NCBI GenBank assembly: GCA_038400315.1
Contig: CP151667.1
Span: 1,995,174 to 2,059,173 of the forward strand
Origin: Isosphaeraceae bacterium EP7
GTDB lineage: Bacteria; Planctomycetota; Planctomycetia; Isosphaerales; Isosphaeraceae
Length of the DNA stretch: 64,000 nt
Direction: 5' to 3'
Below are positions 39,990 through 57,159 of this stretch, piece after piece; the stretch's first letter is position 1, and each line of letters begins with the position of its first letter. The translations under genes and the position numbers were made by a program. The notes under the pieces are model-generated. The model ran no database searches. It was not told the origin of the DNA and was given only the letters and a program-made list of their open reading frames with translations.

Positions 39990-41216
39990 TTGAAACGCAC
40001 CACGGCCCTGGCGCTGGCCCTGGCGTGGCTGGCCACGTCGCCGGCCCAAGCCGCAGGCCCGGCACCCATCGAGCTGAAGGACGGCGACCGCGTCGTCCTG
40101 GTCGGCGGCACGTTCGTCGAGCGCGACCAGTCGTTCGGCTACTTTGAGACCGAAGTGACCCGGCGTAATCCCGGCAAGTCGATCCTCTTCCGCAACCTCG
40201 GCTGGAGCGGCGACACCGTCTGGGGCGAGTCGCGCGCCGGCTTCGGCACCGCCGAGGACGGATTTCGCCAGCTCAAGGGGCAGGTCGCCCTCATCAAGCC
40301 GACCCTGATCCTGGTGCACTACGGCGCGAACGAGTCGTTCGCCGGCTCGCAGGGCCTGCCGCACTTCGTCGAGGGGCTGGACAGGCTGCTCGACATGCTC
40401 GCGGAGACCAAGGCGCGAATCGCCCTCGTCTCGCCCATCAGGGCCGAAGACCTGGGCCGGCCTCTCCCCGACCCGTCGCGACATAATGCCGACCTGGCCC
40501 TGTACTCGGCCGAGATCAGCAAGGTGGCCGCGCGCCGGGGGTTGCCGTTCGTCGATATCCTCGATGTCGATGGGTCGAAGCTCAACCCGCCCGCCAAGCT
40601 GACCCAGGACGAGATCCAGCTCAACGCGCTGGGCTCGTGGCTGACCGCCCGCACCCTGGCCGATCGCGCCTTTGGAGCGGTTGAAGATGGCTGGCAGGTG
40701 GAACTGGAGCCCGGGAAGGCTATGTCGAAGGGGGCCGAGGTGGCGGTGGCTCCGGCGCCTTCGGATGGCTGGAAGTTGGGTCCGAAATTCCGCCTAACTG
40801 ATGCCGTCCTGGCCGCCCCCGCGAGCCCGGCCGGCGGCCATACGGGCCGAAAACTGGCGGTGAAGGGCCTCGACGATTCGGCGAAATACACGCTCAAGGT
40901 CGACGGCAAGGCGCTCGTCACGGCCAACGGCAAGGCCTGGGCCGCCGGAATCGCGATCGAAGGGGGCCCCGACGCCGCCCAGGTCGAGACGCTCCGGTCC
41001 ACGATCGGCCGCAAGAACTCGCTCTACTTCTACCGCTGGCGGCCCCAGAACGAGACCTACCTGTTCGGCTTCCGCAAGCACGAGCAGGGGAACAACGCCC
41101 GCGAGATCCCCATGTTCGACCCCTTGGTCGCGGAGCAGGAGTCGGCCATCGCCGGGCTCCGCGTCCCGACCCCCCGCACTTATGAGCTCGTCCGCGAAGG
41201 CGAGGTGAAGTCATGA
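39990..41216 (+). CDS. Exported GDSL/SGNH-like protein lacking the usual serine
   Basis: A 408-residue exported protein. A signal peptide (LKRTTALALALAWLATSPAQA) precedes an SGNH-hydrolase-like fold. The block-I position reads RVVLVGGTFVERDQSFGYFE, with GGT in place of GDS. The Gly block is HYGANESFAG and the C-terminal His block reads TQDEIQLNALGSWL, without a His. The canonical catalytic Ser and His are therefore absent, as in some planctomycete relatives. The start is TTG 39990 with GGAGG at 39977-39981; the ORF opens at 39873. Its stop overlaps the start of the PVC heme protein (ATGA), so the two are translationally coupled. Confidence 0.8.
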   Translation: MKRTTALALALAWLATSPAQAAGPAPIELKDGDRVVLVGGTFVERDQSFGYFETEVTRRNPGKSILFRNLGWSGDTVWGESRAGFGTAEDGFRQLKGQVALIKPTLILVHYGANESFAGSQGLPHFVEGLDRLLDMLAETKARIALVSPIRAEDLGRPLPDPSRHNADLALYSAEISKVAARRGLPFVDILDVDGSKLNPPAKLTQDEIQLNALGSWLTARTLADRAFGAVEDGWQVELEPGKAMSKGAEVAVAPAPSDGWKLGPKFRLTDAVLAAPASPAGGHTGRKLAVKGLDDSAKYTLKVDGKALVTANGKAWAAGIAIEGGPDAAQVETLRSTIGRKNSLYFYRWRPQNETYLFGFRKHEQGNNAREIPMFDPLVAEQESAIAGLRVPTPRTYELVREGEVKS

Positions 41217-44200
41217 TCAAGCGCACTCATCCGTCGGGCCTTTGCCTGACGCTTGCCCTGGCGTGCGGGCTGCTCGCCGCCACCACGGCCCATGCCCAGC
41301 GGCCCCCGTTCGAGATCCCCAATCCGGACCCCGAGATCGAGCGCAAGTCGTTCCAGGTGGCCGACGGCTTCGAGGTGAACCTGTTCGCCGGCGACCCGCT
41401 GCTGGCCAAGCCGATCCAGATGAACTTCGACGCCAAGGGGCGGCTCTGGATCGCGAGCTCGGAGGTCTATCCGCAGATCCAGCCGGGGCAGACGGCCAAT
41501 GACAAGGTCCTGATCCTGGAAGACAAGGACGGGGACGGCAAGGCCGATACCACCACCGTCTTCGCCGACGGGCTGCTGATTCCGACCGGGGTCGAGCCGG
41601 GCGACGGGGGGGCCTATGTCGCCAACAGCACCGAGCTTCTGTATATGAAGGACACCGACGGCGACGGCAAGGCCGACGTCCGCAAGGTGGTCCTCTCCGG
41701 GTTCGGCACCGAGGACACCCACCACATCCTGCATACGCTGCGATGGGGGTTCGACGGCCGCCTGAACATGAGCCAGTCGATCTACATTCATAGCCACGTC
41801 GAGACTCCCCACGGCGTCAGGCGCCTCAACGGCGGCGGGACCTGGCAGTTCCGCCCCGAGACGATGCAGCTTGATATCCTGATGAAGGGGCTGGTCAACC
41901 AGTGGGGCCACGCCTTCGACCGCTACGGCCAGTCGTTCGGCACCGACGGCGCCGGCGGCGAGGGGATCAATTACCTGCTTCCGGGCGCCTACTACGTCAC
42001 CTCGCCCGAGGCCGTGCGCATCGTCCGTGGGCTCAACCCCGGCAGCCCGAAGCATGCGGGGCTGGAGATCGTCAGTGGCCGGCATCTGCCGGACGACTGG
42101 CAGGGGAACTTCATCACCAATGACTTCCGCGGCAATCGGGTCTGCCGATTCGTGGTCACCGAGGACGGCGCAGGCTTTGCCTCGCGCGAGCTTGGCGAAC
42201 TGATCAAGACGTCTCACATGGCCTTCAGGCCGATCGACGTGAAGATGGGGCCCGACGGCGCGATCTACATCGCCGACTGGTACAACCCGATCATCCAGCA
42301 CGGGGAGGTCGACTTCCGCGACCCCAGGCGCGACCACACCCGCGGCCGAATCTGGCGCGTGACGGCCAAGAACCGGCCGACCGTCGAGCGACCCAAGCTG
42401 GAAGACGCGCCCGTGACGGCGCTGCTCGACAAGTTGAAGTCGCCCGAGGATGCCACCCGCCACTTCGCCAGGCGCGTGCTCAAGGAACGTGGTGCGACCG
42501 AAGTGATTCCGGCACTCGCCGCATGGACTGCCGCGCTGGCGCCCGACGCCCAGGAGTTGCGGCTGGAAGCCCTCTGGACGTACCAGTCCCTCGACGTCGT
42601 CGAGCCCGCATTGCTGTCCGCGATGCTCGACGCCAAGGACGGCCGGATCCGCGCCGCGGCGGTTCGCGTGACGCGGAACTGGGCCGACCGGGTCTCCGAT
42701 CCGCTGGCGCTGCTGGCCCCGCGCGTGCTCGACGAGCATCCTCGCGCCAGGCTTGAAGCTGTGCGTGCGCTGGCCCACATCCCCGATTCGCGGTCGGCGG
42801 GCCTGGCGCTCAAGGCGCTGGACAAGCCGCAGGATCGTTATCTCGACTACGCCCTCTGGCTGACGGCCCGCGAGCTTGCCCCGCAATGGCTGCCGCAGGC
42901 ACAGTCTAAGGAAGGTCGCGAGGCGGCGTTCTCGAACCCGTCGCACCTGGTCTTCGCGCTCATCTCGCTGGGGAACAAGGACTCGGTGGCCCCCCTGATG
43001 GCCATGATCGCCGAGGGACTCGTGCCGGCCGACCGCGAGGACGCCGTGATGGACCTGATCGCCACCCAGGGAGGGCCGGCCGAGCTGACCAAGGTCTTCG
43101 AGATGGCGGTGGTCGACGGCCCGACGGCCGATGCACGACGGGCCTCGCTGCTGCAAGGCCTGATGAAGGCGACCCGCCAGAACAAGGGCCAGCCGACCGG
43201 CGACCTCGGCCGCCTGGCGAACCTGGCCAAGGCCGACCGCGACCCCGCCCTGAGGGCCACGGCCACCCGCGCCGCGGGCCTCTGGAAAGTCGAGCCGATC
43301 CTCGCCGCTCTCCGCGAGCAGGCCGGCAAGAATGTGGATGTCTCGCTGGCTCCCGCCCTGGTCGAAGCCCTTGCTTCGGCCGGCGACGTGCCGACGCTGG
43401 CGAAGTTGGCCGGCTCGGGCGACGTCCTGAGCAATCGATCGCTGGCCGTCGCCGCATTGGCGGGCCTTGATGCAACCCAGGCGGCCAAATTGGCCTCGGG
43501 GCTGATGGCCGGCGACTCCGCCGCGCCGGCGGTTCCGGTGCTGATCGGGGCCTTCTTGAACCGCAAGGGAGGGGCCGACGTCCTGGCCGGCGCCCTGAAA
43601 GAGACGACGCTTCCGGGCGACGTGGCCAGGGTCGCGGTGCGGCTGGCCCGTGGCTCGGGTGCCGAGAATCCCGGGCTGGTCAAGGCCCTGACCGTCGCGG
43701 GCAAGCTCGACGCGGCGCGCGAGCCGCTGGCGGGACCCGAGTTGACGGCGTTCCTCACGGACGTCGCGGCCAAGGGCGATGCGGCGCGGGGCGAGGCCCT
43801 CTTCCGCCGCGCCGAGCTGAACTGCATCAAGTGCCACGCCGTCGCTGGCGCAGGCGGACAGGTTGGTCCGGGTCTTGAAAGCATCGGGGCAAGCGCCCAG
43901 CCCGACTACCTGGTCGACTCGCTGCTCCAGCCCGCCAAGGCCGTCAAGGAGAACTACCACGCGACCGTGGTGGGAACCGTCGATGGCCAGGTCAAGACCG
44001 GCATCAAGGTACGACAGACCGACTCGGAACTCATCCTGCGAGACGCCGAGGACGCGGAGATCGCCATCCCGCTGTCGTCGATCGAGGACCAGAAGCCGGG
44101 CGGCTCGCTGATGCCCGCCGGCCTGACCGACTCATTGACCCGCGATGAGCTGCTGGACCTGGTCAAATTCCTGTCGTCGCTGGGCAAAGTGGGACCGTAC

Positions 44201-44680
44201 TCGGTGGGCAAGGCCCGGCTGGCGCGGCGGTGGAGGGTGCTGGAGCCAAACGCGGCGACGGAAACTCTGCTCAGGCGCAACCGGCTGGACATCGCCGCTT
44301 CGGCCGACCCGGCCCTTCGGTTCCTGCCGGTCTACAGCATGGTCTCGGGGGTTCTTCCCCTGGCCGACCTCGCCCCGATTAACCTGACGATGAAGCTTGC
44401 CGGCCAGGATTACGGGTCGAAGTTCGGCTTCGCCCGGTGCGAGATCGACGTCTCGACGGCCGGGGCGGTGAAGCTGGGCCTGGAGGACATCTCCGGCCTG
44501 ATGCTCTGGGTCGACGGCCGAGTGGTCGAGCCCAAGCCCGAGCTGACGCTCGACCTGCCTGCGGGCGTCCGGACCTTGACCATCGGCGTCGACCTTCAGA
44601 AGCGACTGACCCCCGTGCGGGTCGAGCTCGAGGAAGTCGCCGCGTCGCCGGCCCGTGCCCAGTTCGTCCTGGGCAAGTGA
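41213..44680 (+). CDS. PVC-type propeller/HEAT/heme c protein, exported
   Basis: A 1155-residue exported protein. A signal peptide ends near residue 28 (AHA). A six-bladed propeller of the sorbosone-dehydrogenase type spans about 40-400, with KSFQVADGFEVNLFAGDPLL and two Asp-rich Ca-binding loops of the form DKDGDGKAD. HEAT-like repeats follow at about 405-850. A single c-type heme site CIKCH lies at 871-875, then the PVC-specific C-terminal region (YLVDSLLQPAKAVKENYHAT). The last 170 residues form an additional beta-rich domain. Such proteins are abundant in Planctomycetes and Verrucomicrobia and are presumed periplasmic sugar- or alcohol-oxidising enzymes. Translational coupling with the GDSL-like gene suggests joint work on one substrate. 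Confidence 0.88.
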   Translation: MIKRTHPSGLCLTLALACGLLAATTAHAQRPPFEIPNPDPEIERKSFQVADGFEVNLFAGDPLLAKPIQMNFDAKGRLWIASSEVYPQIQPGQTANDKVLILEDKDGDGKADTTTVFADGLLIPTGVEPGDGGAYVANSTELLYMKDTDGDGKADVRKVVLSGFGTEDTHHILHTLRWGFDGRLNMSQSIYIHSHVETPHGVRRLNGGGTWQFRPETMQLDILMKGLVNQWGHAFDRYGQSFGTDGAGGEGINYLLPGAYYVTSPEAVRIVRGLNPGSPKHAGLEIVSGRHLPDDWQGNFITNDFRGNRVCRFVVTEDGAGFASRELGELIKTSHMAFRPIDVKMGPDGAIYIADWYNPIIQHGEVDFRDPRRDHTRGRIWRVTAKNRPTVERPKLEDAPVTALLDKLKSPEDATRHFARRVLKERGATEVIPALAAWTAALAPDAQELRLEALWTYQSLDVVEPALLSAMLDAKDGRIRAAAVRVTRNWADRVSDPLALLAPRVLDEHPRARLEAVRALAHIPDSRSAGLALKALDKPQDRYLDYALWLTARELAPQWLPQAQSKEGREAAFSNPSHLVFALISLGNKDSVAPLMAMIAEGLVPADREDAVMDLIATQGGPAELTKVFEMAVVDGPTADARRASLLQGLMKATRQNKGQPTGDLGRLANLAKADRDPALRATATRAAGLWKVEPILAALREQAGKNVDVSLAPALVEALASAGDVPTLAKLAGSGDVLSNRSLAVAALAGLDATQAAKLASGLMAGDSAAPAVPVLIGAFLNRKGGADVLAGALKETTLPGDVARVAVRLARGSGAENPGLVKALTVAGKLDAAREPLAGPELTAFLTDVAAKGDAARGEALFRRAELNCIKCHAVAGAGGQVGPGLESIGASAQPDYLVDSLLQPAKAVKENYHATVVGTVDGQVKTGIKVRQTDSELILRDAEDAEIAIPLSSIEDQKPGGSLMPAGLTDSLTRDELLDLVKFLSSLGKVGPYSVGKARLARRWRVLEPNAATETLLRRNRLDIAASADPALRFLPVYSMVSGVLPLADLAPINLTMKLAGQDYGSKFGFARCEIDVSTAGAVKLGLEDISGLMLWVDGRVVEPKPELTLDLPAGVRTLTIGVDLQKRLTPVRVELEEVAASPARAQFVLGK

Positions 44681-47319: not shown

Positions 47320-49002
47320 TCAGGACGTTACGGTCTCGGCGAGGCGTCGGGGCTCGGCGGCGACCGAGGGACGCAGGACGACGTGCCTGGCCCACTCGGG
47401 CCGTGTCGTCGGGAAGTCGGATCGGGTGTGGACCCCGCGCGACTCCTCACGGGCAGTCGCCGCGGCGATCATCAGCCTCGCGATGGTGAGCATGTTCTGA
47501 AGGGTCCAGCCCGAGGGATCATCGAAGGTGGCGTTCAGGCCGTAGCGGCACCAGGCGTCGACCTGTTCGGCGGCGTCCCGCAGGCCGCCGGATTCGCGGG
47601 TGATCCCCACGGATCGCCACATCAGCGCGCGGAGCGATTCCCGGACGTCTGCAAGATCGAGAATCGACCGCTGGCCGTGAGATGAGAGGGACTCGACGGG
47701 GGGGACTTCCAGGCGGGCGGCCCCGGAGGCGAGCAAAGTCCGGCTGATGTCGTCGCCGGCGCGGGCGCCGTGGACGAGCCCTTCGAGCAGGCTGTTCGAC
47801 GCGAGCCGGTTGGCCCCGTGCAGGCCCGAGCTAGTGACCTCGCCCGCGGCCCAGAGCCCAGGGACGGCCGTCCGGCCGTCGTCGTCGATGATCACCCCGC
47901 CGACCATGTAATGGGCGCCCGGGCGCACGGGGATGGGGTCCCGGGTGATATCGAGATCGAAGTTGCGGCAGAGCTTGTCGATTCCCGGGAAGCGGCGGCG
48001 GATGAATTCGGCGTCGAGATGCTTCAGATCCAGGTAAACGCACGGGTGCTGGGTCTTGGCCATCTGGGCGGTGATGGCACGCGACACGTCGTCGCGCGGG
48101 GCGAGCTCGGCCAGGCGGTGGGCGGCGGGCATGAACCGCTCGCCGTGGCGGTCGCGGAGGTAGGCCCCTTCGCCGCGGAGGGCCTCGGTGAGCAGGTGCC
48201 GCGACGACCCGGCGATGTAGAGCACGGTCGGGTGGAACTGCATGAATTCCATGTCGCGCAGGTCGGCCCCGGCCCGAAAGGCCAGGGCGTGGCCGTCGCC
48301 GGTTGCGATCGGAGGGTTGGTCGTCTCGCGGTAGAGCTGGCCGGCCCCGCCGGTGGCGAGCACGACGGCCCGCGCCCAGATGAGGCTGAGCCCTCGGCGG
48401 CGGTCCCAGACCAGGGCACCCCGGCACCGCCCTTCGTGGGTGAGCAAGTCGACGGTGAAGCTGTTCTGCCAGATGCGGATCCCGGCCCGGTGGCGGACCC
48501 GTTCGATGACGGCGCGCATGATCTCGCGGCCAGTGGCGTCGCCCATGGCATGGACGATCCGGGCATGCGAGTGGCCGCCTTCGAGCCCGAGCGACACGTG
48601 GCCGTCGACCTCGTCGAAGTGGGTGCCCCACTCGACCAGTTCGGCAATGCGCCTGGGGGCTTCGCGCACAACCAGGGCGACAACCTCGGGGTCGCAGAGT
48701 CCTTTGCCCGCGGCAAGGGTGTCGGCGATGTGGTCGGCGAAGCAGTCCTCGGGGTCGAGCACCCCGGCGATCCCCCCTTGGGCGTAGCTGCTGTTGCTCT
48801 CGCGGATCTCGTCCTTGGTGACGACCAGGACGCGCAAGGACTCGTCGATTCCAAGGGCCGCTCGCAGGCCGGCGACCCCTCCGCCGATGACGAGGACATC
48901 GGCGAAGTGGTGGGGGAGGTCGCGCGGGTCGAAACCGGCCAGATAGCGACGGAGCGGAGGCAGGGGGGTCAGGATCTCGGGTTCGAGCGGCTTGGGGTCC
49001 AT
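47320..49002 (-). CDS. nadB: L-aspartate oxidase
   Basis: A 560-residue FAD flavoprotein of the succinate dehydrogenase/fumarate reductase family that oxidises L-aspartate to iminoaspartate in de novo NAD synthesis. The FAD motif VLVIGGGVAGLRAALG is at about 37-51. SNSSYAQGGIAGVLDPEDCF and EGGHSHARIVHAMGDATGRE are typical of NadB, followed by FMQFHPTVLY, EALRGEGAYL and the C-terminal GEVTSSGLHGANRLASNSLL. ATG 49002 is the last start before the conserved region; no strong ribosome-binding site precedes it. The open frame to 49260 overlaps the hairpin and the next gene and is rejected. nadA and nadC are not in the window. Confidence 0.93.
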   Translation of the reverse strand: MDPKPLEPEILTPLPPLRRYLAGFDPRDLPHHFADVLVIGGGVAGLRAALGIDESLRVLVVTKDEIRESNSSYAQGGIAGVLDPEDCFADHIADTLAAGKGLCDPEVVALVVREAPRRIAELVEWGTHFDEVDGHVSLGLEGGHSHARIVHAMGDATGREIMRAVIERVRHRAGIRIWQNSFTVDLLTHEGRCRGALVWDRRRGLSLIWARAVVLATGGAGQLYRETTNPPIATGDGHALAFRAGADLRDMEFMQFHPTVLYIAGSSRHLLTEALRGEGAYLRDRHGERFMPAAHRLAELAPRDDVSRAITAQMAKTQHPCVYLDLKHLDAEFIRRRFPGIDKLCRNFDLDITRDPIPVRPGAHYMVGGVIIDDDGRTAVPGLWAAGEVTSSGLHGANRLASNSLLEGLVHGARAGDDISRTLLASGAARLEVPPVESLSSHGQRSILDLADVRESLRALMWRSVGITRESGGLRDAAEQVDAWCRYGLNATFDDPSGWTLQNMLTIARLMIAAATAREESRGVHTRSDFPTTRPEWARHVVLRPSVAAEPRRLAETVTS

Positions 49003-49132: not shown

Positions 49133-52100
49133 TCAGCGGCTTCCCCCCTGCGGCGTGGCGGGGGTCCGGGCCGGGGGAGACGGCCGTGACAGGCTGCTGC
49201 GGTACGCCTCGACACGCGAGCGAACTTCGGCCGGGGCCACTGAGCGGGTGCCCTGGACATTGCCCTGGACGGTGTCCTGAGGCAGACCCTTCGTCGACAC
49301 GGTCGACCGGCGATTGAACGACGTCCTGGGGTCGAGAGGCGGCAGGTCCGAAGCGGGAGTGGCCGCGCGACCCTGACCGGGCTTCACGGACAATTCGCGG
49401 CCTTCGCCCGCGGCGGCACTTTCCTTGGGCTTCTTGTAAGACTTGACGAACTGCTCCATCTCGCCGCGGGTCATCCCGGTCTCCTGCTCCATCTGTGGGG
49501 TGACCTTGTCGTTCTTCAGCAGATCGTCGAGTTTGCGCAAGACGAGCTCACTCTGGGGCATGTCCGGGGCCACCTGTTCACCGTCGTTGCCCGCGGGGGG
49601 CTCGGGCGCCCTGGGGCTGGGGGTGGTGGTGTCTGCCTTTGGCGTGCCGCCGTTGGCCTGTCCGCGCCCCCCATTCTGAGGATTGCCCTGGCCTTCTCCG
49701 GCCTCACCTTGCTGGTCTTTCGACTCGCCTTGCTGCCCATCGGGCTGACCCGGCTGAGGGCTGCCCGCCTTGCCGCCCGGCTGGCCCTGGCCACCGGCCT
49801 TCTGACCACCCAATCCGTCCTTGGGCTGACCCTGGCCCGGCTTGCCGCCGGCCTGAGTTGACGAGCCGGGCTGGGTTCCCCCGGGCTCGGACCCACCTTT
49901 TGCCTGTCCTTGTTTCTGGCCCGTCGAGCCGGAACCCTGAGAATCTCCGGCCGCCTCGCCCCCGGTCTTCCCGCTGGGAGTGCCTTTCGAAGAGGAAGAG
50001 TCGCCTTGTCCAGGCTTTCCGGGCTCACCCTGACCTTGTTGGCCCTGACCCGCCTGCTGCCCTAGACCCTCGCCCGCTTGACCCTCTCCCGCCTGGTTTT
50101 CACCAGCTTTGCCCTGACCTTGGCCGGACTGACCTTGGCCGGACTGACCTTGGCCGGACTGACCTTGGCCGGACTGACCTTGGCCGGACTGACCTTGGCC
50201 GGACTGACCTTGGCCTTGTCCCTCACCCTGACCTGTTTCTTGGCCCTTAGATTTTCCCTGTTGCCCCTGGCCCTGCTGGGCTTTTCCTTGTTGTCCCTGA
50301 CCTTGTTGCCCTTGCCCCTGACCTTGCTGATCCTGACCTGATTGTGCCTGCTGACCCTCAGTTTGTTGACCCTGGCCCTGTTGGCCTGTCGCATTCTGAC
50401 CCTCGCTCTGCTGACCCTGACTCGCTTTGCCCTGCTGGCCTTGTTGCCCTTGCTGTCCCTCTGCCTTTCGTCCTTGCTGGCCTTGCTGACCCTCGGACTT
50501 CTGACCCTGCTGGCCTTGGCTCTGCTGTCCTTGTGGACCTCGCTGCGGGTTGCTCTGATCCTGCTGACCCTGATCCTGCTGGCCCTCGGACTTTTGACCT
50601 TCCTGACCCTGCTGCGGTTGGGTCGACTGACCGGGAGGTTTTGAGGCTTCCGGGGTCTGCTGAGCTGGCTGCGAAGACGGTTTCGGCTGCACTCCGGTCT
50701 GGGCTTGCGGGTTCTTAGGCTGGCTGGAAGACGACTTCGGATCGGCCTGGGACGGATTCTCGGGGGCGGAAGGATCCTGCGACTTCTGAGTTGGATCCTG
50801 GGCACCAGGCTGACCTGGCGGCGTGTTTTCAGACTGGCGGCCGCCTTGCGGATTTGTCTGCGACTCACCCGGCTCGGGCTGGGCCTGAGCGGGGGAAGTC
50901 GGCAGGCCGGGCTTCGTGCCTGGTTGCGGCTGGTCGCCGAGCTTCGGGGGTTGGTCGCCGGTTTTGGGGGGCTGGCCGCTGGATCCGGGGGCGGGAGGCT
51001 TGGTTTCCGCTCCGGGCTTGCCGGATTGAGCCTGGGCCGAGTCCTGTGACTTGGTGCCGGACGGAGAGTCCTGATTGCGAGTTCCGGGCGTGCCGGACTT
51101 CGAGTCGGGATTGCCCGCTCCCTCCGGATTCTTCGAACCATCGGCGTTGGGCGACGCCTGCTTCGTGGGGTCGGCCTTCTCGGTCGCCGGCTGGCCGGGC
51201 TTGGTGGCCGGCGTCGTCCCCTTGGGCTGACCAGATTGCGTTGCGTCTGGCGAGGCACCCGGATTGCCGGACTTGGAGTCCTGTCCGGCTTGCGTCTTCG
51301 CGGAATCAGCGGGGCCACCGGGCTTGGCTTCGCCGCTGGCAGATGGCTGGTCAGCCTGAGGCTTGCCATCGGGACTGGCCTGGGAGGCTCCCTGACCCTC
51401 GGGGGTTTTCGCCTTCTGCGAGGCATCTCCGGGGGCCTGATTTCCCTTGGGCTGATTCGAATTCGAGGCCGAAGGGGAGCCGGCCTTGGAGTCGCCGGGA
51501 GCCTGAGCTTGATCGACTCCCTCATTCGCTCCACCGGGGGACTTCTGGGATTCGCCCTTGGCGGTTTCGCCGGACTTGGCCTGGGGATTCGACGACTTGG
51601 TCGCGTCCTTCGAGGCCGCAGAGCTTGCCCCGGATTTGCCAGGCTCGGCGGATTTCAATCCGGACTTGGTGTCGGCCGGATTCTCGCCGGGCTCGGGGGA
51701 AGTTGACTGGCCCGATTCTCCGGGCTGGCCGGCCTGAGGCTTCGTGGTCGAGCCTTCGGCGCCTGGATCCTTGGACTTCGTGGGGTCGGCCCCGGCGGGC
51801 GAGTCGGTCCCCTTGGGCTGGGCTGCAGAGCCGGACTGGTCGCCGCCAGCGGGAGGGTTGCCGGCTTTTGCACCGGACTTTGATGGATCCGTCTTCTGGG
51901 TTCCGTCCTCGGGCTGGGCACCGGTGGGCTTGGGGGCTCCGGTCTGATCGGCAGAGGAGCCTTCGGGCGTCTGGCCCGGCTTCGTTGTAGGCTTCGTTTC
52001 GCCCGGAGCGGTCCCGGATTTCGACTTCTCGGAGTCCGGACCCTTTTGGGAATTCGAGGGCTGACCGGCCTGGTCCTTAGCCGAGCTGGCTCCACCTTTA

Positions 52101-54940
52101 GTGGGGTTGGCTCCGCTCTGGCCGGTCTTGCTGGCGTCCCCGGACGGCGGAGTCTGTTCGCCAGTTTTGGTCTTCTGGGAGTCGGGTCGAGCGGCGGGGT
52201 CGGAACCCTGGGGTTGCGTTCCCTGCTGGCCGTCCTTCGAGTTCTTCGGGTCGCCCGATTGGCCCGGCTTGGTCGACCCAGTTTGACCAGAAGTGCCCGG
52301 CCTCTGGGGCTGCTGGTCGGGCTTGCCAGGTTGGCTCTCATCTCGAGTCGTGGAGTTCTGGCCCTGGGCGCCTTGCTGGCCGGGAGCCTGGTCCTTCACG
52401 TCACCCGGCTTTTTCGGCTCGCCCTTCTGCGGCCTTGTTTCGTCGGACTTCTGCCCACTCTGGGGCTGGGTTGTGCCCGTTGAGGAAGGCGGGGAGGTCT
52501 CGCCCGAGGGTTGCTGGGGTTTCGAAGAGTCGCTATTTGCCGACGGCTTCGACTCGTCCTTGCCTTGTTGGCCCTGACCAGCACCGTTGGGAGGCGATTG
52601 TTGCTTGGAATCAGCGGGGTTGGGCTTATCGGTCTTGGACGGCTCATTCGCCTGATCTTGCTTTGCGCCAGGCCGTTGCGCTCCCTGGCGGTTCTCCGCG
52701 CGGGAGACGGGCGACTTCCCGGAGTCGCCGTTCTGAGGCTGGTCTGTCGAAGTGCTTGGCTTGCCCTGCGGTTCGCGGGGCTCGCCAGGGTTCGCCGGAT
52801 CGCGGGGCGCTGGGTCGGCCCTCTGGACTTGCTCATCCTGGGAACCAGGGGCGCCGGGAGGATTGGGTTGCGGCGGCGTGGGGTTGGACGAGCCGGGGTC
52901 GCGTCGCGGCTGGTTGGCAGCCTGAGGAGTCCCGGGCGGCTTGCCCTGGTCGCCGTTACGGGGGGCCTGCGGCTTGGAGTTTTCTCCCCCCTGGTTGGCG
53001 GGGGGGTTGCCCGACTGGGCGCCTTGCCGGTCATTGGCCGGATTGCCCTGCTCGGGAAGCTGCGGCCGGGGAGGGGTTCCGAGGGCTCGTTCGAGGCGTT
53101 TGAGCTTGTCCTCGAACTTCTGACGCTCCTGGGGGGTCATCTCCGGTTCGGACGGCGCTGGCGCGTTATTGCCCGGGTCGGCGCCTTCCTCGGGCTGGCC
53201 TTGATCCTGGCCTGTCTGCTCGACCTTGTCCTGATTGCCGGCCTGGCCTTCGCCGGTCTTGGCCGGTTCGCCGGGCTTGGGCTGGGGTTCTTCGGCGGGA
53301 GTCTGGTCAGGAGCGGGTTCTTCGGGTGCGGGCTGGGGTTCGGGCTCGGCCTGATCCTTGTCGAGCTGCGCCAGCTCGGCCGGGGGCTTGGGGGGGCCAA
53401 CCTCGATGACCCGACGCGAGGTCTCGAACTTGTTCGACTGCGGCTGCTTGCTGTCGCGGACGGTCAGCCAGTACTCGATCTTCGAACCCGGCTGGACCTT
53501 GAACGCCTCCAGGTCGAGCACCTCGGAGCGGCGGAAGATGGGCTCGGGCTTGGCCTGAGTTTCCAGGAAGTTGGCGGCCGTGCGGAGGATCTCGTTCCCC
53601 TGGACGACGTGCAAAGTCACGTCCTGGAGCCCGAAGTCGTCGCCGGCCTCCATGTTCAGGCGGACCCGCGCGTTGGCGGGGGCCTTGAAGGGGTCTTCCG
53701 GCTGGGTGAATCGGGCCGTCGGCGGGTTGTCCTTGATCGACCGGATGTCGTAGACGACCGGGTCTGGATTCACCTGCCCGCCGGTGGTCGTGAACTTGAT
53801 CGTGTAGGAGCCGGGCTTGGTGATGCCGAACTTGCCCACGAGGACGTCAGGGTCGTCGGGCGAGACGGACATCAGGGCCGGCGGGATGTTCTTGCCGAAG
53901 TCGAGCTGACCCGAGCGTGCGGGCTGGTTGGTCCGAGCCCTGACGGTCACCAATGTCCCTTCGAGCGCCTCGACGTTGCCCCCCTCGACGGCCGCTCGTC
54001 GTGCGACCCCGGCATAGGCGGGGAAGTCGAGGTCGTGCGTGACCCCGGTGACCATCGGGGCGGGGAGGACTTCGAGCTGATACCGGCGCGACTCGGCGTC
54101 GCCGGCGGTCAGGTAATACTCCATCCCCTGCTGCACGTTGCGGACGGTCGTCTGCCAGGGGTCGTAGCGGTTCGAGCCGGCGGCCAGCTCAATGGGGGCG
54201 AAGAAGTTGCCGCCGTCGGTGCTGACATGCAGGACGACCTTCTCGGGGGCGTTGCCTTGCACCTCGACGGAGAACGGAACATGCGTGCCGGCGACCACCC
54301 TGGCCAGCTCGGGATTGTCGCCCGGCTTGATCTTCTCCAACCGCGTGTTGGTCGGCCGGACGACGTCGGAGAGCAGGGCCCGCTTGGCCGAGTCGAGCAG
54401 GCTCTTGGGGGTCCAGAGCGCATAGAAGCAGTACAGGACGACGACGGCCGCGAGTGCGTAGGCCATCTGGGTGAGGCGGCCCTGGTTGACGACGCTCTCG
54501 ACCTCGATGCGCGTCAGGTCATTGACCGCCTTGCGCTCGATCGCCGCCATGACCGACTTGGGCATCGTCTCGCGATATTTGCGGAGCTCGAGATAGTTGA
54601 TCAGGCTATTCTTGAACTCGGAGTCGGTCTCCTCGATCGCCCGCGCGGCGTACAGCCCGTTGATCTTGAACAGCGATGGGCGGATGACCTGACGCCAGAG
54701 GTAATAGCCGGCCGCGGCAAGGCCGCCGTAGAGCATGATCCGCCTGGACCAGATGGGCAGGCCGAAGCGGTGGTCCAGGACGATCTCGACGAGCAAGACC
54801 GCTAGGGTGGCGAAGAGCAGGGTGAGCCCCGCGGTGATCAGGTCGGTGACCTTGATCCTGGCCCTGGTGCGGCCGATCTGGTGGTCGATGTACTGCTCGT
54901 AGTCGAGCAGTTTCCCTTGCGGCTGCGTTCCCAGGGCCAT
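49133..54940 (-). CDS. Giant membrane-anchored protein with Gln/Gly/Pro-rich low-complexity region (DUF4175-like N-terminus)
   Basis: A 1935-residue protein in one frame. Residues 1-170 include two hydrophobic pairs of helices near 35-90 and one near 160-175. The region up to about residue 515 has extracellular-looking beta domains. This N-terminal part resembles DUF4175-like planctomycete proteins. Residues about 520-1785 are low complexity, rich in Gln, Gly, Pro, Lys, Ser and Thr, with motifs such as GQQGQ, PGKPGQ and SGQGQ and almost no aromatic residues. The only island is a short helix-like segment around PEMTPQERQKFEDKLKRLER. The last 145 residues include LVLRKLDDLLKNDKVTPQME. ATG 54940 has GGAAGGAG upstream. 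Codon use stays coherent throughout, so it is a real gene. Function unknown; a cell-envelope or matrix role is a guess. Confidence 0.85.
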   Translation of the reverse strand: MALGTQPQGKLLDYEQYIDHQIGRTRARIKVTDLITAGLTLLFATLAVLLVEIVLDHRFGLPIWSRRIMLYGGLAAAGYYLWRQVIRPSLFKINGLYAARAIEETDSEFKNSLINYLELRKYRETMPKSVMAAIERKAVNDLTRIEVESVVNQGRLTQMAYALAAVVVLYCFYALWTPKSLLDSAKRALLSDVVRPTNTRLEKIKPGDNPELARVVAGTHVPFSVEVQGNAPEKVVLHVSTDGGNFFAPIELAAGSNRYDPWQTTVRNVQQGMEYYLTAGDAESRRYQLEVLPAPMVTGVTHDLDFPAYAGVARRAAVEGGNVEALEGTLVTVRARTNQPARSGQLDFGKNIPPALMSVSPDDPDVLVGKFGITKPGSYTIKFTTTGGQVNPDPVVYDIRSIKDNPPTARFTQPEDPFKAPANARVRLNMEAGDDFGLQDVTLHVVQGNEILRTAANFLETQAKPEPIFRRSEVLDLEAFKVQPGSKIEYWLTVRDSKQPQSNKFETSRRVIEVGPPKPPAELAQLDKDQAEPEPQPAPEEPAPDQTPAEEPQPKPGEPAKTGEGQAGNQDKVEQTGQDQGQPEEGADPGNNAPAPSEPEMTPQERQKFEDKLKRLERALGTPPRPQLPEQGNPANDRQGAQSGNPPANQGGENSKPQAPRNGDQGKPPGTPQAANQPRRDPGSSNPTPPQPNPPGAPGSQDEQVQRADPAPRDPANPGEPREPQGKPSTSTDQPQNGDSGKSPVSRAENRQGAQRPGAKQDQANEPSKTDKPNPADSKQQSPPNGAGQGQQGKDESKPSANSDSSKPQQPSGETSPPSSTGTTQPQSGQKSDETRPQKGEPKKPGDVKDQAPGQQGAQGQNSTTRDESQPGKPDQQPQRPGTSGQTGSTKPGQSGDPKNSKDGQQGTQPQGSDPAARPDSQKTKTGEQTPPSGDASKTGQSGANPTKGGASSAKDQAGQPSNSQKGPDSEKSKSGTAPGETKPTTKPGQTPEGSSADQTGAPKPTGAQPEDGTQKTDPSKSGAKAGNPPAGGDQSGSAAQPKGTDSPAGADPTKSKDPGAEGSTTKPQAGQPGESGQSTSPEPGENPADTKSGLKSAEPGKSGASSAASKDATKSSNPQAKSGETAKGESQKSPGGANEGVDQAQAPGDSKAGSPSASNSNQPKGNQAPGDASQKAKTPEGQGASQASPDGKPQADQPSASGEAKPGGPADSAKTQAGQDSKSGNPGASPDATQSGQPKGTTPATKPGQPATEKADPTKQASPNADGSKNPEGAGNPDSKSGTPGTRNQDSPSGTKSQDSAQAQSGKPGAETKPPAPGSSGQPPKTGDQPPKLGDQPQPGTKPGLPTSPAQAQPEPGESQTNPQGGRQSENTPPGQPGAQDPTQKSQDPSAPENPSQADPKSSSSQPKNPQAQTGVQPKPSSQPAQQTPEASKPPGQSTQPQQGQEGQKSEGQQDQGQQDQSNPQRGPQGQQSQGQQGQKSEGQQGQQGRKAEGQQGQQGQQGKASQGQQSEGQNATGQQGQGQQTEGQQAQSGQDQQGQGQGQQGQGQQGKAQQGQGQQGKSKGQETGQGEGQGQGQSGQGQSGQGQSGQGQSGQGQSGQGQSGQGQGKAGENQAGEGQAGEGLGQQAGQGQQGQGEPGKPGQGDSSSSKGTPSGKTGGEAAGDSQGSGSTGQKQGQAKGGSEPGGTQPGSSTQAGGKPGQGQPKDGLGGQKAGGQGQPGGKAGSPQPGQPDGQQGESKDQQGEAGEGQGNPQNGGRGQANGGTPKADTTTPSPRAPEPPAGNDGEQVAPDMPQSELVLRKLDDLLKNDKVTPQMEQETGMTRGEMEQFVKSYKKPKESAAAGEGRELSVKPGQGRAATPASDLPPLDPRTSFNRRSTVSTKGLPQDTVQGNVQGTRSVAPAEVRSRVEAYRSSLSRPSPPARTPATPQGGSR
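50116..50215 (-). repeat. Tandem repeat of a 15-base unit inside the giant gene
   Basis: Six exact tandem copies of the unit GACCTTGGCCGGACT (plus strand) run from 50116 to 50205, followed by two thirds of a further copy. On the coding strand each unit adds the five residues Gly-Gln-Ser-Gly-Gln in register. Exact identity of all copies indicates recent expansion by slippage or unequal exchange. Confidence 0.95.
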
Positions 54941-55118
54941 GCGGGGCTCCTTCCGATCCGGGCGAGGCCGCCCGGTGCGGTGCGTGGCGAAGGCGAGACG
55001 GGGCATCCGCGGGCGATGCCCAGCTATTATACGCCGCTCACGGCGGCCGGGAACAACCCTCAGACGAATGTCATGCGTGCATCGCCCGGGTCGGGGCCGC
55101 CGGCGTGGTCGGCGGGCC

Positions 55119-56222
55119 TCAACGGCCGGTCATCGCGGCTTCCTGGATCATCCGGGGGGTGACGGTGGCCAGCGGCTTGCCCGTCTTGGCCAGGACTCGG
55201 GCGGACGCGAAATAGGCTCCCGGGACGAATTCATCCACGGGCCATTTCGCGACGGCGCGGACGAACTCCCACTTCTCGGGCCCGAACGGCTCAATCGTGG
55301 CGGGGACCGTCTTGACGATGTGACCGCTGGAGTCGTGCAGGCGGAATTCGACCGAGCCGACGTAGGGGACGAACGTCGGAGGGATGGCGACCACCCCCAC
55401 CACCTCGGCCCGCTCGGCCTGGACCCAGGGAGTCTCGACCCAGCAAGGGAACGACGCCGGGCCGGCCTGCGTGAAATAGTCGGGGTCGAACACATCGACC
55501 AACTGCATCGTGGCCTGGGAGGCCGGCTGCTGGACGGACAGCGGCGAGCCGAAGGCGAAGGTCCGGTCGACCCGGCCGGCGCCGTCGGCGCTGCAAAGCT
55601 CGGCGTCCAGGGCGATCAGCGATCCCGCTTTCGGCGTGAAGCCGGGGAAATTGATCCAGGGGATCTTCAGCTCCAGCTCATACCCGTCGGGGTTCCCCTT
55701 CGCCGCGATCTCGACCCCTTCCAGCACGACGTCGCTGGTGGCAATGCCCTTGCGCATTTCCCAGCGGGGCTTGACCTTGGTGCCCTCGAACGCGGAGAAG
55801 AAGAAGTGGATGGCCCCCTCGGACCAATCCTTGCTGCGGAATTTCTCGCCGGTGCGGGTGTCGAGATAGAACTCCACCGCGTCGCCATTCCAGAGCGAGC
55901 CCGGCTCGCCGATGTCGATCGGCCTCCGATCGAGAGACCGCAGCCCGATGTACAGCGAGCCCTCATCCCATGCGTAATAAAACTGGGCCGCTCGATCGTT
56001 GAGCTTGCCGTGGTTGTAGTGCACGGGGGTGCAGAACGCGTGCGACCACTCGTCGAGCTTGCCGTCGACCGCGATCGGCTTCTTGGCCCGGGTCACCAGC
56101 CCCCTGACCCCCTTGCCCAGCGGGGGTTCGTCGGCAACCGCCACCTTGCCCCCGACCGAGCCGAGGCAGGCAACCAACCCGAGGAGTAAGGTGAAACCGC
56201 GAAAGAGTGTCCGGTTGCTCAT
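55119..56222 (-). CDS. Exported protein with CBM9-like sugar-binding domain
   Basis: A 367-residue exported protein with a signal peptide (MSNRTLFRGFTLLLGLVACL; probable cleavage after VADE or nearby). A carbohydrate-binding-module-9-like domain follows, recognised by KPIAVDGKLDEWSHAF, AQFYYAWDEGSLYIGLRSLD, WNGDAVEFYLDTR, and GYELELKIPWINF. The last 100 residues are an additional beta-rich part. Proteins of this kind bind sugars or polysaccharides at the cell surface; no catalytic domain is visible. ATG 56222 precedes the signal peptide; the open frame to 56543 is rejected. It lies between the SGNH hydrolase gene upstream and the giant gene downstream, all in one direction but with gaps of 163 and 178 bases. 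Confidence 0.8.
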   Translation of the reverse strand: MSNRTLFRGFTLLLGLVACLGSVGGKVAVADEPPLGKGVRGLVTRAKKPIAVDGKLDEWSHAFCTPVHYNHGKLNDRAAQFYYAWDEGSLYIGLRSLDRRPIDIGEPGSLWNGDAVEFYLDTRTGEKFRSKDWSEGAIHFFFSAFEGTKVKPRWEMRKGIATSDVVLEGVEIAAKGNPDGYELELKIPWINFPGFTPKAGSLIALDAELCSADGAGRVDRTFAFGSPLSVQQPASQATMQLVDVFDPDYFTQAGPASFPCWVETPWVQAERAEVVGVVAIPPTFVPYVGSVEFRLHDSSGHIVKTVPATIEPFGPEKWEFVRAVAKWPVDEFVPGAYFASARVLAKTGKPLATVTPRMIQEAAMTGR

Positions 56223-56385
56223 GGGAAATTCTCGAGCGGAGGGTGCAGCAGAATCGGCCCGCGGGGGCGGGAAACCCGCGAGGGGCGTGGGCCGACGCCC
56301 TGAGATGCTAGAGCGTTCGCCCAGAATTCTCAATGGCCTGAAATGTCCGGGCCGGATCACTTCCGACCGACGCGACCGGCCCGGT

Positions 56386-57159
56386 TCACTTCGAGCCTCG
56401 CTCGCGGATGACCGCCCAGATCGCCTCGGCGATGGCCTGCATCCCGCGGTCGCCCGGATGATTCGCGACGCCCGCATGGTCGATCTTTCGTTCGGCACCC
56501 GCCATGTTTTGGGGGTCGGCTCCGAGTTTCCCGAGGTCGACATGAAGGCCGCCCATCTCCTTGCAAATCGACCGCATGATCTCGTCTTTTGCGGGGTCGG
56601 CCCAGAAGCAACTCCGGACCACGATCGTGGGCTTGCCTTGACCCTGGATCGCGGAGATCAGACTGCGAAAGGCATCGCCGTACTCGGTCTTGAGCGCGTC
56701 TGACGTGAGGGCGGGGACGTTCTCCCCAATCGCGAGTACCACGAGATCTGCCTTGAATTCCAGTTCGCTCTTCAGGCTCTCCGCGGGGCGATAAGACTGG
56801 AAACCGCGTTCGAAGTCGGCGATATTCTTCGCCAGGATCCGCGGCTGTCCTTTCGCTTTCGTCGCGATCGTTGCCGTCAACAGATGGACGTAATCCTTCG
56901 TCTCCTCGCTGGCCGCCATGCCCCAGTTTCCCGTCCAGCCGATGTCCGGCTTCGGGCCATGCAACGTGATGCTGTTGCCGAGAAAGAGGATCTTGTTGAC
57001 CCGAAGGCTCCCGACATGCAAGTCGGTGGGCTCGGCAGCCTTCTGGGGCAAGGCCATCGCTTGCAAGCCCATGAATCCCGCGAAAATGAGCGCCACGCCT
57101 ACCACGACAATCCGACGCCGTCGGCCCACAAGGCCGGCCATCATTCCGTTCATCGCCAT
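56386..57159 (-). CDS. Exported or membrane-anchored SGNH hydrolase
   Basis: A 257-residue protein. An N-terminal basic segment and one hydrophobic helix (RIVVVGVALIFAGFMGLQAM) look like a signal peptide or anchor. The SGNH fold follows: block I KILFLGNSITLHG with the nucleophile Ser, block III VLAIGENVPAL with the Asn, and block V AGVANHPGDRGM with the catalytic His. All expected catalytic residues seem present. Family members are esterases or lipases acting on lipids, acylated sugars or the like; the substrate is unknown. ATG 57159 has GGAG 5 bases upstream; ATGs at 57153 and a few codons later are alternatives. It is divergent from the GDPD gene. Confidence 0.82.
   Translation of the reverse strand: MAMNGMMAGLVGRRRRIVVVGVALIFAGFMGLQAMALPQKAAEPTDLHVGSLRVNKILFLGNSITLHGPKPDIGWTGNWGMAASEETKDYVHLLTATIATKAKGQPRILAKNIADFERGFQSYRPAESLKSELEFKADLVVLAIGENVPALTSDALKTEYGDAFRSLISAIQGQGKPTIVVRSCFWADPAKDEIMRSICKEMGGLHVDLGKLGADPQNMAGAERKIDHAGVANHPGDRGMQAIAEAIWAVIRERGSK

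Follow-up and report, generated by a model that had tools for sequence, protein, structure and literature searches.

TolA, TonB, and the vWA force transducers have an anchor in the inner membrane, a flexible region that crosses the periplasm, and a C-terminal domain (PMC12204202, excerpts). The planctomycete protein that we describe here is similar in its reach-across layout of anchor, flexible region, and C-terminal domain, but TolA and TonB have a single transmembrane helix and our protein has three. Also, domain II of the vWA transducers is ~100 residues long (PMC12204202, excerpts), and the linker of our protein is about tenfold longer. The SHLS motif that marks the single N-terminal helix of TolA/TonB transducers is absent from our protein and, in 54 orthologues, from residues 1–250, and no TonB or TolA C-terminal domain is among the Pfam matches listed. 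Motor genes of the TolQR/ExbBD type adjoin the genes of TolA/TonB transducers. AdvA of Acinetobacter is a membrane protein that carries the DUF4175 label, is essential for division, and is reported to have two transmembrane helices (PMC7481262, excerpts), versus three in our protein; the likeness lies in the DUF4175 name only.

In the parts of the open-licence literature that we covered for DUF4175, TIGR02302, planctomycete disorder, and envelope tethers, there was no description of this protein. Nor did the parts of the open-licence literature that we covered describe what keeps the planctomycete inner membrane in position with respect to the outer layers. A near-universal protein of the class, with conserved ends joined by a polymer of variable length, would be a direct candidate for holding the inner membrane. 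As judged from its sequence, ours is a well-conserved, uncharacterized, and predicted envelope protein.

The TIGR02302 model is named “aProt_lowcomp”, and this family comprises alphaproteobacterial proteins with two or three N-terminal transmembrane helices and a long Gln/Gly-rich low-complexity region. Our protein is alike in that its N-terminal transmembrane helices are followed by a long low-complexity region. We rejected TIGR02302 as the formal family of the gene because the score was below the cut-off: nothing in 21 genomes scored above the NCBIfam cut-off of 394.3 bits, and the gene itself had no match at E ≤ 0.01, or even at E ≤ 1. RSP_0730, which is a TIGR02302 protein, appears in the CenR table of a study of division and envelope control in Rhodobacter sphaeroides (PMC9275681, excerpts). 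Because there was no match over the TIGR02302 cut-off, this link to the envelope is an analogy only.

The gene and its conserved ends

The gene lies at 49133..54940 on the reverse strand of the window (the whole stretch of 64,000 nucleotides that we analyzed, from the 7.2 Mb genome of Isosphaeraceae bacterium EP7). The parts of the gene given below are all on the same strand. A reading of the letters alone had described a membrane-anchored protein of 1,935 residues with a very long low-complexity region; the 1,935-codon gene is confirmed as genuine, and the region comprises 1,277 amino acids (506–1782). A Shine-Dalgarno-like sequence that we read directly, GGAAGGAG (54947..54954), sits 6 nt upstream of the start codon at 54940, and residues M1, A2, Q6, and P7 of this start are invariant across eight aligned sequences, so this start is correct.

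The folded N-terminal part that the sequence-only reading described proved to have three transmembrane helices and about three beta domains, with the strands taken from a low-confidence model. Helix 1 (amino acids 37–55; 54776..54832) has a Kyte-Doolittle peak of 2.45 and is a helix in the model, and helix 3 (159–177; 54410..54466) has a peak of 1.83. Helix 2 (~66–84; 54689..54745) was placed from the family’s hydrophobicity and from a helix at 63–90 in the model; in the window protein itself, it has no peak above 1.4. Among the 54 rows, peaks above 1.4 were present for helix 1 in 54, for helix 2 in 50, and for helix 3 in 54. Helices 2 and 3 are separated by a helical segment (85–158; 54467..54688) that appears in the low-confidence model and is probably cytoplasmic. 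The roughly three tandem beta domains (200–515; 53396..54343) are Ig/FnIII-like, as indicated by the model’s strands, Foldseek, and Pfam.

The model of the N-terminal part has helices up to residue ~190 and strands from 200 to 515, with a mean pLDDT of 59.3 (25–82 by block in the beta region). Given such a model, Foldseek returned only generic tandem FnIII/Ig arrays, with TM-scores of at most 0.32, so we do not claim any specific structural relative. A sequence search of the PDB with the N-terminal part gave nothing below E = 0.38. The family’s mean net charges are +0.6 for the N-terminal tail, +0.3 for the first loop, +2.0 for segment 85–158, and +1.4 after helix 3, which is a weak positive-inside signal and too weak to serve as proof of topology. 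Instead, it is the odd number of helices together with the Ig-like beta domains that suggests an orientation with the N terminus inside and the C terminus outside.

Within the beta-domain region, residues 307–447 match DUF4175 (PF13779); the match leaves out the long linker and the C-terminal module. The scores were 21.7 bits for the 565-residue N-terminal part and 17.9 bits for the full protein, which are below the gathering score of 27.3 bits. Across the 54 members that we scanned, 26 match DUF4175 at E ≤ 0.1 (the best at 6.6e-12). A profile-profile comparison (hhalign) with five paralogues gave a probability of 100 and E = 6e-45 over 511 columns, and one of these paralogues, L087, passes the cut-off with 46.2 bits. 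Because of this comparison, the N-terminal part is, on profile evidence, related by homology to DUF4175 over the membrane and beta regions, despite missing the Pfam cut-off. The genome has two paralogues of the gene. L087 (243–11018), the DUF4175 paralogue in the same genome, has 1,299 amino acids and a low-complexity share of 234 residues, which is smaller than that of our gene. It adjoins BatA-VWA, VWA, and squalene-hopene-cyclase-like alpha/alpha-toroid genes; the paralogue L088 likewise adjoins a gene for an alpha/alpha-toroid protein.

At the other end of the protein, the “short structured C-terminus” of the sequence-only reading is indeed structured, but it is better described as a conserved module, with ~40 residues in three helices and a terminal helix. 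The three-helix module (1796–1835; 49436..49555) was identified from the alignment of orthologues and has a pLDDT of 84–89 by block. The terminal helix (1904–1917; 49190..49231) carries a PxEYRxxxEAYxxSLS motif that is found in both the alignment and the model and recurs in outgroups. In the model of the last 150 residues (overall pLDDT 61), the three helices lie at positions 11–50 and the final helix at 119–132.

A profile of the C-terminal module has one match in the genome, which is the gene itself. We rejected a relationship to PDB entry 8VD6: its E value of 2.5e-6 is a sum over five copies of a repeat, and the best single stretch has an i-Evalue of 16. (The paper that cites 8VD6 is a protein-design study.) Matches to SAM_SMF in 9 of 32 members are compatible only with a small helical bundle. 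Similarly, when the genome was searched with a 21-column profile of the C-terminal motif, the gene scored E = 3.9e-6, and five further matches were weak (E = 0.27–3.4). We rejected the idea that other proteins share the motif: three of the weak matches (L127–L129) are far from the C terminus, and the other two (L130 and L131) are not informative.

Orthologues across the Planctomycetia

We searched 59 genomes for orthologues: 37 from the same family and 22 from other relatives in the class. Every genome had some match, and 35 of the 37 genomes in the family had a strong orthologue (E < 1e-100). The other two (G010 and G024) had weak matches only, and both of these assemblies are 81% complete. 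We fetched 54 loci, of which 34 are from the family and 20 are from the 22 class relatives. The loci left out were the weak matches in G010, G024, and G054, as well as G042, which belongs to the same genus as G046. (The relative in Singulisphaera acidiphila DSM 18658 is 58% identical over the N-terminal part.)

For 40 of the 54 loci, the end of the gene lies inside the fetched stretch. The other 14 run off the contig: one (L052) before the linker and 13 inside it (L035, L037–L040, L045, L046, L048, L050, L055, L064, L065, and L076). Repeat-rich linkers of this kind seem to interrupt draft contigs frequently, as these 13 of 54 loci illustrate, so this class of proteins is probably under-reported.

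The C-terminal module is in frame, by alignment, in 37 of the 40 loci. In the remaining three (L034, L042, and L060), it lies downstream in another frame, and L060 is beside a run of Ns. Because the linker holds repeats, assembly error is a plausible explanation, and real breaks are also possible. The profile of the module matches 34 of 38 intact proteins, including the window’s, but it was built from 32 of the 34 full-length rows, so their matching is partly circular. The four that it missed (L081, L082, L083, and L086) have tails that align with those of the other proteins. To analyze linkers, we set aside L034, L042, L060, and L052 beforehand and also dropped the four proteins without a match to the module. 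The remaining set comprised 47 rows, with the window among them, and 34 of the rows were full length.

All 34 of the readable loci with a recognized C-terminal module (the window included) have a linker, of 342–1483 amino acids. The median length is 1,204 in 19 Isosphaeraceae (including the window) and 673 in 15 other Planctomycetia (Mann-Whitney p = 0.002, ignoring relatedness). The sequence-only reading had named orthologues without the region, or frameshifts in other assemblies, as findings that would count against it. No readable orthologue lacks the linker, and just 3 of 40 loci have the module in another frame.

We also sampled 246 Planctomycetota more broadly. The N-terminal profile matched 221 of them at E ≤ 1e-10 (scoring the best 5 candidates per genome), and the profile of the C-terminal module matched 22 at E ≤ 0.001 (scoring the best 15 candidates per genome), with one match in each. 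As 16 of these 22 genomes belong to the same class and the remaining 6 to other classes, the module appears, by this profile, to be mainly confined to the Planctomycetia. Among six outgroup stretches that we fetched, three have N- and C-terminal matches in one frame, 368, 390, or 751 residues apart, and these three proteins terminate in a motif of the PxEYRxxxEAYxxSLS type. Two others (L124 and L125) have N-terminal frames without a C-terminal match, and L123 has a C-terminal match only. A search of a plasmid collection gave no match.

Composition and turnover of the linker

The low-complexity, disordered linker (506–1782; 49595..53425) was delimited by a hydrophobicity threshold. At its N-terminal edge, ~10 residues are shared with the final strand of the beta domains as modeled. 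It is 17% G, 17% Q, 14% P, 11% S, 9% A, and 8% K. Just 1.7% of its residues are hydrophobic (VILMFYWC), there is a single aromatic residue (0.08%) and no cysteine, and the net charge per residue is -0.013. Residues 621–1790 have no aromatics and 21 arginines in 1,170 residues. The C-terminal third of the linker is rich in Gln and Gly (28.5% Q and 27.2% G).

Several lines of evidence show that the linker is translated. Its frame is the only one of the six that is free of stops (the other five have 4–60), and shuffled DNA with the same bases would encode 2.1% aromatics on average, with a minimum of 1.27% across 200 shuffles, versus the 0.08% that we observed. Tandem arrays are present in the linker DNA of 36 of 47 loci and in none of the 47 N-terminal parts, and 214 of 215 linker arrays have a period that is divisible by three. 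For example, the window’s linker contains an exact 15-bp tandem repeat (50114..50215; 6.8 copies with 100% matches) that encodes a five-residue unit of Gln, Gly, and Ser. In four hand-picked pairs from the same genus, dN/dS was ~0.20, 0.10, 0.11, and 0.56 for the linker and 0.08, 0.03, 0.05, and 0.22 for the N-terminal part; the linker alignment of the fourth pair is poor, so 0.56 is unreliable. Together, the sole open frame, the arrays with periods of three, and the dN/dS ratios indicate that the linker is translated, is constrained at the amino acid level, and turns over in frame by duplication. GC3 drops from 0.906 in the N-terminal part to 0.697 in the linker (621–1790) and is 0.828 in the C-terminal part. 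Codon bias is thus weaker in the linker, and by itself this drop would argue against a strong coding bias there. Overall, the claim that coding is consistent throughout the 5.8 kb holds up, with this qualification.

Conservation is concentrated at the two ends. Among ten hand-picked pairs, comparisons of the window protein with orthologues from three other genera (L033, L036, and L049) gave identities of 56–60% for the N-terminal part and 47–49% for the C-terminal part, and of 30–35% for the linker, versus 29–31% if the linker was shuffled. Even within a genus, linkers differ by many indels. The dominant residues (Q, G, P, S, K, N, A, and E) change freely between orthologues, and glutamine varies from about 6% to 34% of the low-complexity residues. 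Across the 47 linkers, aromatics make up 0–0.65%, hydrophobic residues make up at most 5.4% in 45 (the exceptions are L080, at 11.3%, and L085, at 7.9%), and cysteine is absent from 46 (L036 has four). Arginine is scarce in most of them, and the net charge per residue is near zero (means of -0.023 and -0.058). A comparison of length and composition among orthologues, which the sequence-only reading had proposed as a check, thus gave linkers of 342–1483 amino acids that are near-neutral and have at most 0.65% aromatics. As judged by alignment and composition, it is the bulk polymer properties of the linker that are conserved and not its sequence. Not every member of the class shows this clean pattern: L081, L082, L083, and L086 are not matched by the C-terminal profile, and the linkers of L080 and L085 are more hydrophobic.

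Possible function and neighboring genes

We give about an even chance to the reading that the gene product is a periplasmic tether, anchored in the inner membrane, that presents a C-terminal docking module over a periplasm of large and changing width. The three N-terminal helices would fix the protein to the inner membrane; the short N-terminal tail and the helical segment would be inside, and the tandem beta domains would be on the membrane’s outer face. The long, neutral, and non-sticky disordered chain would let the C-terminal helical module find or reach a distant partner, which might be peptidoglycan, the outer membrane, or some other complex of the envelope. The length of the chain changes by in-frame tandem duplication, and selection would maintain the chain as hydrophilic, neutral, aromatic-poor, and long enough, while also maintaining both ends.

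We favor a tether because both ends are conserved while the linker keeps only its length scale and its blandness; because a linker that is neutral and has at most 0.65% aromatics is present in all 34 readable loci; and because of the three transmembrane helices across the family, the array of beta domains, the single-copy C-terminal module, and the in-frame repeats. Under textbook polymer scaling, we computed that self-avoiding chains of 342–1483 residues would span ~17–40 nm from end to end when free, with contour lengths of 123–534 nm. The planctomycete periplasm is described as variable and, in some cases, greatly enlarged (PMC5394234, excerpts). The BatA-VWA and VWA genes beside L087, and the listing of RSP_0730 in the CenR table (PMC9275681, excerpts), provide an envelope context. 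Points against a tether are the weak positive-inside signal, a second helix that is below threshold, the poor models (pLDDT of 59 and 61), the non-uniform linkers, a conserved neighbor (nadB) that is uninformative, and the reliance on analogy for TIGR02302.

More speculatively, the protein might be a single-copy envelope tether throughout the Planctomycetia, whose repeat-built and evolvable length is matched to an expandable periplasm and whose unnamed C-terminal module docks to a fixed partner; we consider this broader proposal unlikely as a whole. Transposon data are available for Planctopirus limnophila, a tractable laboratory planctomycete (PMC10632474, excerpts).

The sequence-only reading had suggested a spacer, a condensate-forming function, or an adhesive matrix. 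A spacer fits best because the linker is neutral, is nearly free of aromatics, cannot be aligned between genera, and always lies between conserved ends. Alternatively, the linker itself could do the work, as an entropic brush of hydrated, neutral polymer that sits on the inner membrane’s outer face and keeps membranes or polymers apart, with the C-terminal module as a mere end cap or assembly handle. The bland composition, with nothing to bind, would suit such a brush, as would the greater weight of length and composition over sequence. However, a brush leaves unexplained why the C-terminal module is conserved nearly as well as the N-terminal part and why it is still weakly recognizable in other classes, so we regard it as a minority possibility.

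We are also doubtful that the linker is a permissive loop that was inflated by replication slippage and has little function of its own. The restriction of tandem arrays to linkers (36 of 47, versus 0 of 47 N-terminal parts), the more than fourfold variation in length, and the many indels between same-genus pairs are what tolerated expansion would produce. Yet none of the readable linkers in the 34 Planctomycetia loci is shorter than 342 amino acids, dN/dS is ~0.1–0.2 in three close pairs, and the linker stays neutral and aromatic-poor, versus 2.1% aromatics in shuffled DNA.

A condensate-forming or adhesive matrix protein, which the Gln/Gly-rich C-terminal third of the linker might bring to mind, is improbable and poorly supported: the linker lacks the conserved aromatic or arginine stickers of condensate-type proteins (aromatics are at most 0.65%, residues 621–1790 have none, and arginine is scarce), glutamine ranges from ~6% to 34% and is not conserved across orthologues, and three transmembrane helices hold the protein in the membrane. 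Finally, we reject the idea that a shorter genuine gene has merely run on into a frame that is open by chance; its probability is close to nil: despite the many overlapping open frames, the reduced GC3, and the 3 of 40 relatives that are out of frame, the arrays have periods of three (214 of 215), alignment places the C-terminal module in frame at 37 of the 40 loci, dN/dS is below 1, and aromatics are far scarcer than in shuffled DNA.

The only widely recurring neighbor of the gene is nadB (L-aspartate oxidase), which lies downstream on the same strand (47320..49002, with a probable start at ~49002). It is downstream in 32 of the 40 orthologous loci in which we see the gene’s end (31 on the same strand and L069 on the opposite one) and was absent from the fetched flank in the other eight (L047, L057, L070, L071, L072, L074, L075, and L086). 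The linkage spans several families of the class and is old, but it offers no functional clue: nadB is a metabolic gene and is silent on a role in the envelope. There is no obvious reason for it to adjoin a gene for a membrane protein. No upstream cluster recurs widely among the fetched orthologous loci. In the window, the upstream gene (55119–56543) encodes a carbohydrate-binding domain that resembles CBM9 (Pfam CBM9_1, E = 3.2e-10) and is not a recurring neighbor. Elsewhere in the window, at 41180–44680, a long forward-strand frame of 1,155 amino acids overlaps a long reverse-strand frame of 926 amino acids.
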